Shown piece after piece: positions 20,656 to 27,888 of a stretch of 49,979 nt of DNA. Made by a program: the position numbers and the translations under genes. The stretch lies in assembly GCA_026982315.1 (NCBI GenBank), contig JALSHI010000056.1:1-49979 (forward strand), given 5' to 3'. This stretch comes from Lysobacterales bacterium. GTDB taxonomy: Bacteria; Pseudomonadota; Gammaproteobacteria; Xanthomonadales; Marinicellaceae. Numbering within the stretch: position 1 is the stretch's first letter; every line of letters starts with the position of its first letter. The notes under the pieces are model-generated. The model saw only the letters and a program-made list of their open reading frames with translations, did not search any database and was not told where the DNA came from.

Positions 20656-21597
20656 TTATTTTGGCCATTGAATGTAGTGCCGGACCCCTTCTCTGGCCAA
20701 AAAGTCGCCCGCATATTTTCCTTGCAGCATGGCGCAGGTAGCCAGCAAACCAGCTTGCGTCGCCGTACCACCAACCACTGTCACCGTGGCCGGGCCATGA
20801 GGAACCGGCCAGCCGGTTTTAGGATTGAGCACATGCCCCAAACGCTGACCTTTTCCGTCCACAGCAAAGCGTTTGGTGTCACCACTGGTGGCCACCGCTC
20901 CTGTCACCAGGGCTAGGCCGCTCTGCTTTTCCTGCCCGACCAGCGTTTCCACACCAATGTGCCAGGGCTGGCCATCCTTTTTGCTTCTGGCAGCCAGCAC
21001 GTCCCCACCAAAATTCACCAGCACGCCACCCTTTGGCAATGCCTGCAGAAGCTGCATTCCCACCCGATCAACGGCATATTCCTTGCCAATGCCGCCAAAA
21101 TCCAGTTGCACACCTTCTTTCAGGCGCACCGCATCAGTGCGCAATTCAACCTTGTCCCATCCCACAGATTTTCGCGCCTCTGCCACCACGTGCCGGGGTG
21201 GTGGCGGCGACTGCCCATCAAAGCGCCATAAACACATCACCGCGCCAATGGTAATATCAATCAAGCCGTCAGTGGCCTGCCAGCACGTATCTGCTAGCTT
21301 CAGCAACGCCATGGTTTCCTCATCCACCGGTTGCCAGCCGGTGGCGCGGTTGATGCGGCCAATCACGCTCTCTGGCAAAAACCGGCTGAATTTCTCTTCA
21401 ATTCGCCAAGCCTCATTGGCCGCCTGCTCAACCAAGACATGCGCCTGATTTTCATCAGCACATTCCACACACACTTCACACGGACTTTTCATGGCCTCAA
21501 AAGTCCCCAGCCACAAGCCGGGACGACGTTGACGAACCACTGGTGGCGAGCGATTAATCATCCTACCACTTGGTTCGGTATCCAATGGTAATGGCAT
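20656..21597 (-). CDS. apbE: ApbE-family FAD:protein FMN transferase
   Basis: ApbE enzymes use FAD to attach FMN covalently through a phosphoester bond to Ser or Thr in target proteins. This 313-residue protein shows the family motifs ATDGLIDITIGAV (about 109-121), QLDFGGIGKEYAVDR (about 169-183), VNFGGDVLA (about 195-203), ATSGDTKRF (about 239-247) and HVLNPKTGWPV (about 257-267). No signal peptide or lipobox is visible, although many ApbE proteins are periplasmic. An alternative start at 21561 would begin one base after the DUF3570 stop. The longer start overlaps that gene by 35 bases and has GGTGA upstream. It is the last gene of the cluster, and its likely substrate is the DUF3570 product upstream. 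Confidence 0.9.
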   Translation of the reverse strand: MPLPLDTEPSGRMINRSPPVVRQRRPGLWLGTFEAMKSPCEVCVECADENQAHVLVEQAANEAWRIEEKFSRFLPESVIGRINRATGWQPVDEETMALLKLADTCWQATDGLIDITIGAVMCLWRFDGQSPPPPRHVVAEARKSVGWDKVELRTDAVRLKEGVQLDFGGIGKEYAVDRVGMQLLQALPKGGVLVNFGGDVLAARSKKDGQPWHIGVETLVGQEKQSGLALVTGAVATSGDTKRFAVDGKGQRLGHVLNPKTGWPVPHGPATVTVVGGTATQAGLLATCAMLQGKYAGDFLAREGVRHYIQWPK

Positions 21598-22861
21598 AAA
21601 AGGTCACCGATGGCGGCCCCTCGGCAATCCACTCGCTGTTCAGTGTCAATCCATCCCATGAATCCGGATTTTGTTTAACTTGCTCCAGATTCAAGGAGAT
21701 ACGTCGATCATCCGGCAAGTGATAAATGATTTTCATTCCCGCAGTGGCAGTAGTCAGTCCCCCCAGACGATAGTCCGATGAGGCATAAGTCGGCAAATCA
21801 TCCGATGCGGCCAAATACGGCACATAGAAATCCGCAGCGCTCTGCCGGCTATACCGCAAATGTGGCCTCAATTGCCACTTGTCACCAGCACGCAGATAAA
21901 ACTCCATATCGCCGGTGTGGCTGGCAATACCCCAGTCATCACGGAAATACCGGTAAGACAGATGCAGTGAATGCTCTCCCAGGGCGGTCACCATTTTGCC
22001 AGCCAGCGTTTGCCTGACTCTTTTATCCGGGCGCTTCTCCCATAAATAGTCCTCTGCCCGCCCATTGGTGTCCAGCAGCGCCACAACTTTATACGGGTCA
22101 CTCAGGTAGCCATTAGAAAGACTCAAACCATAGTTTGCGCTGAGAACGGTATATTGATTCAATACATGAGAAATACCAATCAAGCCTTCCAGAGTGAGTT
22201 TCTTCTCCCCTTCAAGGAAGTCATCATCGTCTTCATACCCATCTTCATCTTCATCGTCGTCATCATCCTTTAGAGTAAAGCGGCCGGAAGGGGCTGTCAC
22301 TGTATCAAAAATCGAACCGAATTCAGGCCGCAAGCCACCTCGAGGGCTAATAACATCGAAACTCAACCCCAAAGAACCTGATACAGTGGTCTGCTTGTCA
22401 GCCGAGTCTTTAGCCACCAATAAACTGCTGCCCAGAGAGAGATAATCTCTCTCCACAGAGAAGTTGGCACCCATTTCATACCGGCTGGCACCATGATCAA
22501 AAGGCTTTCCGCGGACAACACCCATGGCCAGACGCTGATCCTCAAAACCATTATCCAGCGGCGTTTCCCCGGCAGCTACCACAAACCCGGGGAATTCCTG
22601 AGAAACGGTCAAGGCCGGCGCGCCATTGGGAGAAGCGCCAGTCAGGGCGTCAAAAACCACCGTATAACGAAAAAAGTCATTCGTATCGTACTCCTTAGTA
22701 GCGATAACCACCGGTTCCACCACTGAAACACGGTCCTGCCCTTCACTGTCCGTTTCCGAATACAGCAGCATACCGCTGTCTACCAGCCAGTCATCTGCAT
22801 GCCCCTGAGTTGACACCAGCAGACTGGCCACAGCCAACCCCAGTTTTTTATTTAATTGCAT
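21563..22861 (-). CDS. DUF3570 outer-membrane barrel-like protein with possible flavinylation motif
   Basis: This 432-residue protein has a signal peptide (about residues 1-22) and alternating hydrophobic/polar strands with an aromatic C-terminus, YAITIGYRTKW, as in outer-membrane beta-barrels. It fits DUF3570, of unknown function. Residues 71-77 (22631-22651) read DALTGAS, which matches the D-x-x-S/T-x-x-S/T pattern used by ApbE enzymes. Ser77 would be the acceptor. A second oddity is an acidic run at 199-214 (22220-22267, nearly all Asp/Glu), probably an exposed loop. I start at ATG 22859-22861, because the upstream candidate is TTG and GGGGGAGG precedes this ATG. It overlaps the DUF4266 gene by 10 bases. 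Confidence 0.83.
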   Translation of the reverse strand: MQLNKKLGLAVASLLVSTQGHADDWLVDSGMLLYSETDSEGQDRVSVVEPVVIATKEYDTNDFFRYTVVFDALTGASPNGAPALTVSQEFPGFVVAAGETPLDNGFEDQRLAMGVVRGKPFDHGASRYEMGANFSVERDYLSLGSSLLVAKDSADKQTTVSGSLGLSFDVISPRGGLRPEFGSIFDTVTAPSGRFTLKDDDDDEDEDGYEDDDDFLEGEKKLTLEGLIGISHVLNQYTVLSANYGLSLSNGYLSDPYKVVALLDTNGRAEDYLWEKRPDKRVRQTLAGKMVTALGEHSLHLSYRYFRDDWGIASHTGDMEFYLRAGDKWQLRPHLRYSRQSAADFYVPYLAASDDLPTYASSDYRLGGLTTATAGMKIIYHLPDDRRISLNLEQVKQNPDSWDGLTLNSEWIAEGPPSVTFYAITIGYRTKW

Positions 22862-23085
22862 CCGCAACCTCCCCCGCCAACACCATAACCGCCTGAAGCG
22901 GCCTCTTTACTGAAGTACATGTGTTCGTCCAGATATCCTTGGACTGGATCTGGTTCCATTTGCATATCCGCACGGGCCAGTTGTTTCCGTTCCCATGGCT
23001 TAACCCGTTGCGGTTTAAGTTGCGCACAAGACGCACTGAGCGCTACTGCCATCAATATCAATAGCCATCGACTTCGCTTTTCCAT
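22852..23085 (-). CDS. DUF4266 small lipoprotein with Gly-rich CGCN tail
   Basis: This 77-residue protein has a signal sequence with LSASC as a slightly non-canonical lipobox, with Cys20 as the likely lipid site. The mature part contains KPWERKQLARADMQM (about 29-43) and DEHMYFSKEAASGG (about 53-66), characteristic of DUF4266. It ends in a Gly-rich stretch with Cys74, Cys76 and terminal Asn77. The CGCN end looks like a metal, thiol or modification site, but no function is known to me. AGGAGGG lies seven bases before the ATG. It precedes the DUF3570 gene with overlap and follows a TlpA-like gene by 68 bases. DUF4266, DUF3570 and ApbE commonly co-occur in proteobacteria, which is from memory. 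Confidence 0.85.
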   Translation of the reverse strand: MEKRSRWLLILMAVALSASCAQLKPQRVKPWERKQLARADMQMEPDPVQGYLDEHMYFSKEAASGGYGVGGGGCGCN

Positions 23086-23153: not shown

Positions 23154-23669
23154 TTAATGCAGCGCCTGTTGAATGCGCCCCTCCAGTTCCTGGGCATCTT
23201 TTTTCCGAAACCCGGTGTGATGCATCACAATCTGTCCCTTGCGATTAATCAGAATGCCTGTTGGCATGCCTTTGACATTAAAGGCTGCTGCTGTGCGACC
23301 CTCTGGATCATGGAAAGTGGCAAAAGTGACTGGTCGCGACTCAAGAAACCGCAAGGCGTCTTGTTTGTCTTCATCAACACTCACAGCCAAAACCACAAAA
23401 CCCTGCTTTCCATAACGGGATTGCATGGTATCCAGCCAAGGAAACTCATATCGGCACGGCCCGCACCAGCTGGCCCAAAAGTCCAGCCAGATGGTTTTTT
23501 CCCTGTAGTCCGCCAGGATATGGCGTTGTCCATCCAACCCTGTCAAGGGCTGTTGCCACTGTTGCTGTGTGATAACAGAAAAATCTTTGGCCAACACATG
23601 AAATGGCGCAACCAGACAAACAAACCCAAACCAAAAAACCAGTTTTATTTTTTTCACTTCTTTCCCCAC
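23154..23669 (-). CDS. TlpA-like thioredoxin-fold protein
   Basis: This 171-residue protein has a signal sequence (about 1-27) and a thioredoxin fold with WCGPC, placing redox Cys69 and Cys72 in the periplasm. Other features are FWASWCGPC, the cis-Pro segment GMPTGILINRKG and AVSVDEDKQDA, typical of the TlpA/ResA group that reduces or oxidises periplasmic thiols. The open frame continues to a TTG at 23750, but I start at GTG 23667-23669 with AGGA eight bases upstream; a second GTG at 23655-23657 is also possible. It heads the leftward DUF4266-DUF3570-apbE cluster, which suggests it handles the Cys pair of the DUF4266 tail. That role is inference. Confidence 0.88.
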   Translation of the reverse strand: MGKEVKKIKLVFWFGFVCLVAPFHVLAKDFSVITQQQWQQPLTGLDGQRHILADYREKTIWLDFWASWCGPCRYEFPWLDTMQSRYGKQGFVVLAVSVDEDKQDALRFLESRPVTFATFHDPEGRTAAAFNVKGMPTGILINRKGQIVMHHTGFRKKDAQELEGRIQQALH

Positions 23670-23752
23670 TAAAATATCCTGGCTAGGAAAATACCCACTC
23701 GGCAAATGAAACGCAATTTTTACTGGCAAAAATTGAAAAAAAAATTGCAAAA

Positions 23753-23989: not shown

Positions 23990-25414
23990 ATGCTGACTAT
24001 CAGACATAACAGGTATTCCATGAGAACACTTTTTCCAGCATTGCTATTGGCACTCACCACTATTGTTCTGCCCGTTCTGGCGAATGATGGCGACATCCTG
24101 GAACATATTCGCCAACACGGACAAAATAGCCGCCTGGCCTATGAGCTCGTCGAATCCCTCACCACCGAGGTGGGACCACGGCTGGGTGGCGGCGAGAACG
24201 ACGCCCGCGCCAGAGAATGGGCGCAAGCCATGCTCAAAAAACTGGGGTTTGATGAGGTTCACACCGAGCCGGTCACTTTCCCGCGCTGGCGGCGAGATGT
24301 GGAGTCCGCCACGGTGGTGACCCCTTACCGGCATACGCTGGCGGTGACTGCTCTGGGCGGCTCCGGCCCGACGCCAACAGGAGGCATCACTGCGGAAGTC
24401 ATTGCTTTTGATTCCCTGCAAGCACTTCGGCAAGCCAGCAAAAAGGACATTCAGGGCAAAATTGTTTTCGTCAATCAAGCCATGCCCCGTCACAAAGATG
24501 GCCATGGTTACGGGCAAACCGTTGGTGCCCGCTACATGAGCAGCCAGATTGTCGCCGAAAAAGGGGGCAAGGCAGTGCTAATTCGTTCCATTGGCACGGA
24601 TAACAATCGGCTGCCCCATACCGGCATCATGAAAGTCTCCGCCGACAAGCCCGGCGTCCCGGCCGCCGCCGTATCCATACCCGATGCCCAGCTCTTGCAC
24701 AATCTGCTCGCCCGCGGCAAACCTGTCAATGTGCACCTGAAACTGGGTTCTCATTGGGATGGCGAATACACCTCGGCCAATGTGCTGGGTGACCTGCGCG
24801 GCGAGGAAAAGCCGGATGAATACGTATTGCTGGCCTGTCACCTGGATTCCTGGGACTTGGGCACCGGTGCCATTGATGACGGCGCCGGCTGTGCCATCAT
24901 GATGGCCGCCGTGGCCCATTTGAAGGCGCTTGATCTCAAACCCAAACGCAGCATCCGGGTGCTGCTTGCAGCCAATGAAGAGTATGGCCTGGCCGGTGCC
25001 AAGGCCTATGCCAAGGCTCACGCGGCAGAGGCTCGAAAGCACGTTATCGGCGGCGAATCCGACTTTGGCGCCGGGCGCATTTATCGCTTTGATTCCCATG
25101 TTCAAAAACAGGCTTTTGGCGTCATGGATGAAATAGCCCGGGCCATTGCGCCACTGGGCATTACCCGGGGGCACAACCAGGCAAAAGGCGGCGCCGACGT
25201 TTCCAGAATGAAAGCCTTGGGCATGCCGGTGGTGGATATGAAACAAGATGGCACAAACTATTTCGATTATCACCACACCGCCAATGACACCCTGGACAAG
25301 ATTGACCCTGAGGCCATGGCTCAGAATGCCACCGCCTGGGCACTGTTTGCCTGGTTGGCGGCCAACCATGAAGGCGACTTTGGCTGGTTTGAAAGCACTC
25401 AACACGACCCATGA
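23990..25414 (+). CDS. Secreted M28-family metallopeptidase (carboxypeptidase Q-like)
   Basis: This 474-residue protein has a signal peptide and an M28-type di-zinc peptidase domain. The metal-binding set includes His284 in ACHLDSWD, bridging Asp296 in AIDDGAG, Glu pair in LAANEEYG, Asp in GESDFG and a late His in YFDYHHTAN. A PA-domain-like insert fills about residues 140-260. The arrangement resembles plasma glutamate carboxypeptidase / carboxypeptidase Q. It would release amino acids from peptides in the periplasm or outside. ATG 24020 is an alternative start that gives a shorter n-region. Its stop overlaps the next start codon as ATGA (25411-25414), so the kinase gene is translationally coupled. 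Confidence 0.88.
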   Translation: MLTIRHNRYSMRTLFPALLLALTTIVLPVLANDGDILEHIRQHGQNSRLAYELVESLTTEVGPRLGGGENDARAREWAQAMLKKLGFDEVHTEPVTFPRWRRDVESATVVTPYRHTLAVTALGGSGPTPTGGITAEVIAFDSLQALRQASKKDIQGKIVFVNQAMPRHKDGHGYGQTVGARYMSSQIVAEKGGKAVLIRSIGTDNNRLPHTGIMKVSADKPGVPAAAVSIPDAQLLHNLLARGKPVNVHLKLGSHWDGEYTSANVLGDLRGEEKPDEYVLLACHLDSWDLGTGAIDDGAGCAIMMAAVAHLKALDLKPKRSIRVLLAANEEYGLAGAKAYAKAHAAEARKHVIGGESDFGAGRIYRFDSHVQKQAFGVMDEIARAIAPLGITRGHNQAKGGADVSRMKALGMPVVDMKQDGTNYFDYHHTANDTLDKIDPEAMAQNATAWALFAWLAANHEGDFGWFESTQHDP

Positions 25415-27888
25415 CCCGCACCCGTAAACAAGGCGCACCAGAAAATGCCAACCTTTCAGGAGAGGCGGGACGCAAAACCGTGCCCATCAAAAATGTACGC
25501 ATTGCAGGTTACACCCTTTTGCGTGAAATCGGCCGGGGCGGCATGTCCATTGTTTATCTGGCCGAGCAGGACTCCCTGAAGCGCGAAGTCGCCATCAAGG
25601 TTTTGAAAAAAAACGTGGCTAATGACCCGGAAGTGGCCAACCGCTTTCTGCACGAGGCCAAAATCATCGCCAAACTGGACCATCCCAATATCGTCAGCAT
25701 TTTCGAAGTGGGGCACACGGCCGATGGCGACCCCTATTACAGCATGCCCTATTTGCGGTTTGGAGACTTGTCCCAGGCAGAATTCAAGTTTGACAAAGAC
25801 ATCAAACACCTCATGTACGGCGTCTGCGAGGGACTGGCTTATTCCCATGAGCACGATGTCATTCATCGCGACCTGAAACCGGCCAATATTCTCTTTGATC
25901 ACTTCGGCAATGCCCAAGTGGCTGATTTTGGCATTGCCCTGTCACGCAACAGCAAACGCTGGACCAAGCAGGAACACATTATCGGCAGCGCCTGCTACAT
26001 GAGCCCTGAACAGGCGTTATCGAAACCCGTGACCCAGGCATCTGACCTCTATTCCCTGGGCACAATACTCTACGAACAGCTCACCGGCTCACCACCCTTT
26101 GAAAAAGACGATGACCTGTCCACGCTGGTGGCGCACATCAATGAACCCATTCCCCGCCTGCCACCGGAAAAAGCCCACTGGCAAGGGATCATTGACAAGG
26201 CATTGGCCAAACACCCTGAAGATCGCTTTTTCAATGCCCTGGAGTTCAAAAACGCCGTCCAGCAAGTCTCTCCCGGCTATGCCCGGGCGTTTTCTCAGGC
26301 TTTCTCAAGACACCCCAAAGGCGCCATAGCGGCTATCCTGACTACCGCCGCGGCCTTGCTCTGGTTTCTCTGGCCTTTTGATTATCACGGCCAATCGGCA
26401 AACACCACCGTACCGGCTGTTTCTACACCCCCGGCCACGCTCACGCAACACGAAGACAACGGCGCCGAAATACAACCAAGAACTGCCACAAAACCACCTG
26501 AACTCGATCAGCTGGAACTGTCTGAGTCCACTCTGGATAAAACCACCTTGCCAGAAACCGCCAAAGAGACCAGCAGCGACACGCTACCTGCCCCGGAAAC
26601 AACATCCACCGAAGAAAACACAGCAAAGCCACCAACGGCTCGTGACATTCTCTCTGCCCAGGGACAAGGCGCCGAAGGATTAACCCCGGCTCAAGCCATC
26701 ACTCTCATTTCCGCCGGTTTCCAAAAAATCAAGGAAAAACGCCTGACCCGACCGGCAGGCAACAATGCCCTGGCCTATTTTACCGAGGTACTTCGCAATT
26801 ATCCCAACAACAAACGCGCAACCCAGGGCGTACAACTGATATTCAATTACTTCCTTGAACAAATACGACAGGCCCTGCAAGCCGGAAACCTTACTGAAGC
26901 CCGCCGATATGCCGAAAAGCTTCAGGCGCTCTACAACCAAACCGGCCTGCATAGTAGTTCAAAAACCCTCGCCGCTGAAATCATCCACAGCGCCGAACAG
27001 CGCATGAATACCTTGCGTAAAACCCATCAGGCTGATGCCGCCGAGACCCTTGCGGCGCTAGTGGCCCTGGCTTTGCCCGACCAGCATGAAGCACTGGCGG
27101 CATTGCAGGCAAGCGCTGCGGCCATTCCCCGCCCTGGCGATCACTTGCCCGACAGTCAGGGACTGGAAACCATTTTTGTGTCTGCCGATCCGGCGCGCCA
27201 TGTTGCCGCTTTTGGCCTCATGCCCCATGAAGTCACCGTCGCCGAATATGCCCGGTTTGCCAAAGCCACGGGGCGGAAACCGGCCCGTTGCCAACACAAG
27301 GCGGTCTTCAAGCCATTCGCCAGCAAAACCTGGCGTAAACCACCCTTCAAGCAAACCCCGCAGCATGCGGTGATTTGTGTTTCCTGGGCTGATGCCAACG
27401 CGTTCGCCAAGTGGATTAGCGATCAATCGGGCAACACATACCGTTTACCCACTGAAAAACAGTGGCGATCACTGGCCCGCTGGAAAACCGCTGGCAGCAC
27501 ACCCTGTCAAAAAGGCAATGTGGCCGGGCAGGAAACCAAAGGCCTGCATATCAACAGCCAACCCGAAAAACAACCATGGAAGTGCCGCGATCAATTTGTG
27601 TTTACCGCGCCGGTGACCGGATTTTCTCACAACTCCCTGGGAATCAGCGATATTTGGGGCAACAGCGCCGAGTGGCTGGCCGGTTGCAGCCAAAAAAAAG
27701 CGCCAAACACCAAAAACTGGCTAAAAAAAATCTCCAGTCCCAAAGGCGACAGATGCCAACGAATCTATGCTGGCAATTCCTGGCTGGATGGCACCGGCAT
27801 CGATGCCATGAGCTTCCGTTCCAGCTCCGAGCAAAAAGCCTATACCCATGTGGGCTTTCGCCTGGTGCGTGATTTAAACCCGGACTGA
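25411..27888 (+). CDS. Ser/Thr protein kinase with C-terminal FGE-sulfatase-like domain
   Basis: This 825-residue protein has an N-terminal Hanks-type kinase (about 33-285). It shows the Gly loop IGRGGMSIVY, Lys63 in VAIK, HRDLKPAN with Asp154 and DFG at 172-174, so it should be active. One transmembrane segment (about 305-323) places a Pro/Thr-rich linker (about 330-410), a helical region and a C-terminal FGE-sulfatase-like domain (about 590-822) outside the cytoplasm. That domain keeps PHEVTVAEYARF, YRLPTEKQW, GNSAEWLAG and VGFRLVRD. The region where true FGE has its copper-binding Cys pair reads FRSSSEQ, so oxidase activity is unlikely and ligand sensing is more plausible. It overlaps the upstream peptidase by 4 bases. 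Confidence 0.9.
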   Translation: MTRTRKQGAPENANLSGEAGRKTVPIKNVRIAGYTLLREIGRGGMSIVYLAEQDSLKREVAIKVLKKNVANDPEVANRFLHEAKIIAKLDHPNIVSIFEVGHTADGDPYYSMPYLRFGDLSQAEFKFDKDIKHLMYGVCEGLAYSHEHDVIHRDLKPANILFDHFGNAQVADFGIALSRNSKRWTKQEHIIGSACYMSPEQALSKPVTQASDLYSLGTILYEQLTGSPPFEKDDDLSTLVAHINEPIPRLPPEKAHWQGIIDKALAKHPEDRFFNALEFKNAVQQVSPGYARAFSQAFSRHPKGAIAAILTTAAALLWFLWPFDYHGQSANTTVPAVSTPPATLTQHEDNGAEIQPRTATKPPELDQLELSESTLDKTTLPETAKETSSDTLPAPETTSTEENTAKPPTARDILSAQGQGAEGLTPAQAITLISAGFQKIKEKRLTRPAGNNALAYFTEVLRNYPNNKRATQGVQLIFNYFLEQIRQALQAGNLTEARRYAEKLQALYNQTGLHSSSKTLAAEIIHSAEQRMNTLRKTHQADAAETLAALVALALPDQHEALAALQASAAAIPRPGDHLPDSQGLETIFVSADPARHVAAFGLMPHEVTVAEYARFAKATGRKPARCQHKAVFKPFASKTWRKPPFKQTPQHAVICVSWADANAFAKWISDQSGNTYRLPTEKQWRSLARWKTAGSTPCQKGNVAGQETKGLHINSQPEKQPWKCRDQFVFTAPVTGFSHNSLGISDIWGNSAEWLAGCSQKKAPNTKNWLKKISSPKGDRCQRIYAGNSWLDGTGIDAMSFRSSSEQKAYTHVGFRLVRDLNPD

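Follow-up and report, generated by a model that had tools for sequence, protein, structure and literature searches.

The DUF3570 protein encoded in the window (the whole 49,979-nucleotide stretch of DNA analyzed here) appears to be an outer membrane β-barrel that carries a covalently bound flavin. The reading that we favor, to which we assign a probability of roughly 0.83, is that the linked ApbE flavinylates Ser77 of this protein, that attachment takes place in the cytosol, that the FMN comes to lie in the lumen of the outer membrane barrel, and that it acts there as an electron relay. That DUF3570 can be flavinylated has been published before. Should the model be correct, a covalent flavin would sit in an outer membrane barrel near the cell surface, DUF3570 would be a non-cytochrome candidate for electron transfer across the outer membrane, and flavinylation would occur on the side of the inner membrane opposite to that of the textbook picture of ApbE.

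The DUF3570 gene (21563 to 22861, minus strand) encodes a protein of 432 amino acids when read from the ATG at 22861. This start is preceded, seven bases upstream, by GGGGGAGG, and an in-frame TTG at 22867 would lengthen the protein by two residues. The protein matched PF12094 with an E value of 2.5e-91 and a score of 307 bits, above the curated cutoff of 25. Residues 1 to 22 (MQLNKKLGLAVASLLVSTQGHA; 22796 to 22861, minus strand) probably form a signal peptide, as read from the sequence with the cleavage site placed by eye.

The earlier note had picked out a DALTGAS motif at 22631 to 22651 as an ApbE flavinylation site, and minus-strand translation, together with the PF12094 match, confirmed that these are residues 71 to 77 of the DUF3570 protein. 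The motif conforms to the seven-residue consensus D-x-x-[S/T]-G-A-[S/T] which, according to a 2025 ApbE review (PMC12052999), permits Ser as the acceptor; by this rule, the predicted FMN acceptor is Ser77 (codon at 22631 to 22633, minus strand). The strict form of the motif arose in 0.67% of shuffled versions of the protein, and its occurrence here was the only one among the stop-to-stop frames of at least 100 amino acids in the window (31,651 residues). The same consensus is found in NqrC, RnfG, and other FMN_bind proteins, from which the window protein differs in its predicted 16-strand barrel, in the membrane concerned, in having Ser rather than the usual Thr, and in lacking an FMN_bind domain (the Pfam scan did not find PF04205 in it, PF12094 being its only match).

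A DUF3570 protein has already been flavinylated experimentally. According to the text of Meheust et al. 2021 (PMC8238504), the protein of Chlorobium luteolum became flavinylated upon coexpression with its cognate ApbE, DUF3570 has two conserved [S/T]GA[S/T] motifs, and Ser-to-Ala changes at both were required to abolish the modification. The coexpression was performed in a cytosolic system in which DUF3570 was insoluble, which shows that an unfolded or aggregated DUF3570 protein can be modified and leaves the native location unfixed. As described in that text, the C. luteolum protein shares with the window protein its Pfam family, the [S/T]GA[S/T] class of motif, a Ser acceptor, an apbE gene in the cluster, and DUF4266 and thioredoxin-like neighbors; it differs in having two functional sites, whereas the window protein has one. 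We did not retrieve the C. luteolum protein itself: a wide alignment had no conserved stretch that could be scanned for, and a second scan yielded nearer relatives. By analogy with this homologue, and with the acceptor position conserved as described below, Ser77 is very probably a genuine ApbE flavinylation site. Since the flavinylation of DUF3570 is already published, the idea in the earlier note is right in kind and known for the family rather than new.

The genes around DUF3570 also match the published arrangement. The first gene of the cluster (23154 to 23750, minus strand; exact start uncertain) encodes a TlpA/ResA-like thioredoxin (FWASWCGPCRYEFPW) that matched PF08534 (E value, 5.7e-20) and PF00578 (E value, 1.9e-17); its match to PF13899, the thioredoxin model used in PMC8238504, was marginal (E value, 0.068). 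It is followed by a DUF4266 gene (22852 to 23085, minus strand; PF14086, E value of 8.9e-23), the end of which overlaps the start of DUF3570 by 10 bases and which encodes a small lipoprotein-like protein ending in GGGGCGCN, a C-terminal CxC. The apbE gene (20656 to 21561, minus strand) begins one base beyond the DUF3570 stop codon, the junction reading TAG-G-ATG, so that the adjacency of the two genes reported in the earlier note was borne out. DUF4266 adjoined DUF3570 in 95 of 99 loci with full flanks, and a relative of the thioredoxin-like gene lay no more than 2.6 kb from DUF3570 in 87 of them. The C-terminal GCGC of DUF4266 was conserved across loci. In the window and in loci L077 to L276, the terminal GGGGCGCN was almost invariant, being replaced only rarely by CGCY or CGCE.

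In the text of PMC8238504, DUF3570 genes cluster with apbE, DUF4266, a thioredoxin-like gene, and sometimes DsbD, and 316 such clusters without DsbD are reported. The window resembles these clusters in having DUF4266, thioredoxin-like, DUF3570, and ApbE genes together; it differs from those with DsbD in that no DsbD gene stands beside the window cluster, the only DsbD_TM match in the genome being on contig C9 and not on contig C56. The window operon is thus the published flavinylation operon minus DsbD.

To follow the motif across genomes, we took 120 further neighborhoods and aligned their DUF3570 proteins; PF12094 occurred in 15 of 200 genomes in the order sample, in 95 of 369 in the class sample, and in 20 of 299 in the phylum sample. 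Conservation of D71 and S77 had been set beforehand as the test that could overturn the claim, and in all 71 loci with an adjacent apbE, position 71 was D (53 loci) or E (18 loci) and position 77 was S or T. G occupied position 75 in 67 of the 71; at position 76, 55 loci had A and 13 had S. In 63 of these loci, a complete [ST]GA[ST] was present either at the first site or at another one located 13 residues further along; of the 8 loci in which the strict motif was absent, most read GSS rather than GAS. The second site characterizes a different clade, in which, for example, ESMSGSS precedes QVMSGAT. The alignment showed that the second-site stretch is deleted from the window protein and from its two congeners, and so the window protein has one site in place of the two described in PMC8238504. 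We rejected DTVTAPS, which we had considered as a further flavin site of the window protein, because in the alignment the true second site follows the first by 13 residues.

A third clade reads D-x-[IV]-[ST]-S-A-S, retaining the Asp and the Ser, with Gly75 replaced by Ser. In all 22 loci of this clade with full flanks, DUF4266 and the thioredoxin-like gene adjoined DUF3570, while apbE was present in only 3, each time as a different type bearing a signal peptide. DUF4266, which accompanies DUF3570 also in the absence of apbE and the flavin motif, looks like an obligatory partner, and the change at Gly75 in a clade mostly without an adjacent apbE fits a loss of flavinylation. Because D71 and S77 are kept in this clade, their conservation alone is no proof of flavinylation, and the alignment suggests that they are probably conserved in part for another reason, namely structure. 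The earlier note had also counted the neighboring apbE as support for the site. The adjacency stands; the association of motif with apbE across loci does not help, since it reflects one deep split in the tree and independent pairs gave no support. For that reason, the Fisher p of 3.6e-4 obtained for apbE adjacency over 112 loci is not taken as evidence, and adjacency was dropped as a way of testing the motif.

Structure prediction placed the protein in the outer membrane. An AlphaFold2 model built with 48 homologues was a 16-strand barrel (pLDDT, 89.2; pTM, 0.84) in which the N-terminus, modeled with a short helix, was of low confidence. Foldseek and VIA-align placed the model among many outer membrane barrels (Z of 15 to 22 at ~10% identity), many of which tied, so that no specific barrel family stood out, and a sequence search for a relative in the PDB gave no credible match (best E value, 0.098). 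OmpG, CymA, FadL/Occ, PorB, and the BamA barrel share the fold with the model, from which they differ in sequence (~10% identity, with Foldseek TM-scores mostly below 0.5) and in that the window protein has a conserved lumenal pocket with an ApbE motif. With a signal peptide, 16 strands of alternating faces, a C-terminal W, and the modeled barrel all present in the prediction, the DUF3570 protein is almost certainly an outer membrane β-barrel. An Asp/Glu-rich stretch (22212 to 22275; DDDDDEDEDGYEDDDD) lies in the long extracellular loop that connects strands 7 and 8; the stretch was modeled with low confidence, is partly common to the genus, and could bind cations.

The motif ends strand 3 (residues 62 to 78) and is followed by a long loop (residues 79 to 101). 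When strand faces were assigned by alternation in the sequence rather than from the coordinates of the model, family-wide hydropathy indicated that F64, Y66, V68, and F70 face the lipid, whereas D71, G75, and S77 lie on the polar side, toward the lumen. Of the 39 alignment columns with at least 75% identity, most belonged to the extracellular half, and the strand positions among them mostly pointed into the lumen. The conserved lumen-facing residues are Y34, D71, G75, S77, R110, S135, E137, D169, G251, R281, R304, D308, R336, S338, and Q340. A relative with two sites (L144) was also modeled as a barrel, with its sites at residues 116 to 122 and 136 to 142 flanking the loop between strands 3 and 4. 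In known outer membrane barrels, both termini are periplasmic, which puts the long loops outside and hence the motif at the extracellular end. The model and this topology rule together make it highly likely that Ser77 points into the lumen, at the extracellular end of the barrel, with invariant residues around it.

We propose the following sequence of events. The product of the downstream apbE gene would take FMN from FAD and attach it to Ser77 through a phosphoester bond, doing so in the cytosol on the unfolded DUF3570 precursor, and the flavinylated precursor would then be exported and inserted by BAM. In the finished barrel, the FMN would point into the lumen at the extracellular end, within a ring of invariant polar residues, where it could serve as a one- or two-electron relay from periplasmic thiol proteins to a surface-located acceptor, which might be a metal. 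Electrons might pass from thioredoxin to the DUF4266 cysteines (CxC), on to FMN, and then to the outside acceptor, a route suggested by gene association and put forward tentatively, at somewhat below even odds. Cytosolic attachment before export is probable, because the ApbE lacks a signal peptide and the site would be buried once the barrel had folded. The full combination of a signal-less ApbE, cytosolic flavinylation, and a lumenal FMN linking a periplasmic thiol chain to an outside acceptor with no cytochromes is, taken jointly, rather doubtful.

Alternatively, Ser77 might be flavinylated in a protein that is mainly a channel for metals or small molecules, with the FMN gating the mouth or reducing cargo there and no thiol chain involved. 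In three natural fusions (L091:5866-8625, L102:4930-7641, and L114:5890-8625), DUF3570 is followed by a Met/His-rich extension of roughly 350 residues at the C-terminus; the extension had no Pfam match, and its composition suggests a link of DUF3570 to metal. The survey in the text of PMC8238504 places a VIT1 iron transporter in 25 DUF3570 clusters, and the Asp/Glu-rich extracellular loop found in the window genus would also suit a channel. Against these points, the thioredoxin-like and DUF4266 genes persist without apbE and the motif throughout the clade in which Gly75 is replaced by Ser (22 of 22), so that the system appears to be built around its thiol partners, and we consider a channel that dispenses with them unlikely.

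The choice of the cytosol as the site of attachment in our preferred reading turns on the ApbE. The window apbE, whose product has the core F-E-A-M-K-S-P-C-E, matched PF02424 with an E value of 1.9e-62. An alternative in-frame ATG lies at 21597; from either start, the N-terminus consists of short polar residues followed directly by the transferase core, and neither start yields a signal peptide. By a hydropathy scan, used here in place of SignalP, a signal-peptide-like stretch was present in 5 of 134 ApbEs adjacent to DUF3570 (4 of another type and 1 borderline). Among 42 other ApbEs, most of them encoded by the same genomes, 31 had such a stretch; of the 11 signal-less ones, 7 represent the DUF3570 subtype at unlinked positions and had been included on suspicion.

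Scores against a profile of the DUF3570-linked subtype were bimodal in the genomes compared, with subtype matches at 292 bits or more (384 bits for the window protein) and other ApbEs at 218 bits or less. Within the class sample, of the 49 genomes having a motif-type DUF3570 (a number counted by hand from tables), 46 carried the subtype, as did 2 of the 46 other genomes with DUF3570 and 1 of the 274 without it. The three misses were a genome with a split apbE (G231), one in which the contig ends (G430), and one with the motif DVMTGPS (G250). In this last genome, which lacks the DUF3570-type ApbE, the broken motif belongs to a DUF3570 protein of the motif clade (L134), a possible case of independent co-loss of motif and subtype. 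All 13 genomes of the order sample that had the subtype were among the 15 with DUF3570, and the other two had a divergent adjacent ApbE. Six genomes carried the subtype elsewhere than beside DUF3570 (G205, G335, G454, G202, G388, and G319), and in the first five of these, the DUF3570 protein bears the motif. Presence in the whole genome is a better test than adjacency, although it shares in part the same phylogenetic limitation.

The subtype occurred without a motif-bearing DUF3570 in three genomes, G232 (L320), G254 (L321), and G390 (L323), in which we found no convincing alternative motif-bearing target beside the ApbE. In G254 and G390, the DUF3570-type ApbE adjoins a porin-like gene. The text of PMC8238504, as searched here, discusses neither the barrel fold nor a signal-less ApbE, and the barrel geometry and the signal-less subtype, together with the probable cytosolic attachment to which they point, are apparently new.

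Ser77 might instead be flavinylated in the periplasm, before the barrel folds, by a lipoprotein ApbE of the same genome, with the linked ApbE either exported without a classical signal or serving another target. The genome does have further ApbE copies, on contigs C44 and C24, the latter with a lipobox-like N-terminus, and according to PMC12052999, the majority of characterized ApbEs act in the periplasm. The linked subtype, however, tracks the motif-type DUF3570 nearly one to one (46 of 49 versus 1 of 274 genomes), and clade members that have DUF3570 without the subtype show a degraded motif despite the presence of other ApbEs, which makes periplasmic attachment improbable. A precedent for the cytosolic attachment that we prefer is described in the same review, namely, a Klebsiella pneumoniae ApbE that lacks a signal peptide, as does the window ApbE, and that acts in the cytosol on a soluble fumarate reductase; its target remains in the cytosol, whereas that proposed for the window ApbE goes to the outer membrane. 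The two other ApbE copies of the window genome (L001 and L002) lie at contig ends and share nearly the same sequence where the transferase core begins, which could reflect either a recent duplication or an effect of assembly.

An alternative in which the motif is a turn in the barrel structure and stays unflavinylated in this organism, with apbE serving FMN_bind proteins, would agree with the retention of D71 and S77 in the clade that lacks G75 and mostly lacks an adjacent apbE, and with the two FMN_bind proteins of the genome (matches on contigs C68 and C24), but it is very improbable given that a homologue is flavinylated at such motifs (in the text of PMC8238504), that position 75 is Gly in 67 of 71 loci with an adjacent apbE and Ser in the apbE-poor clade, and that the linked ApbE subtype is missing from nearly all genomes without DUF3570.

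Elsewhere in the window, at 25411 to 27888, there is a predicted Ser/Thr protein kinase, the C-terminal region of which resembles, by eye, the domains of formylglycine-generating (sulfatase-modifying) enzymes.
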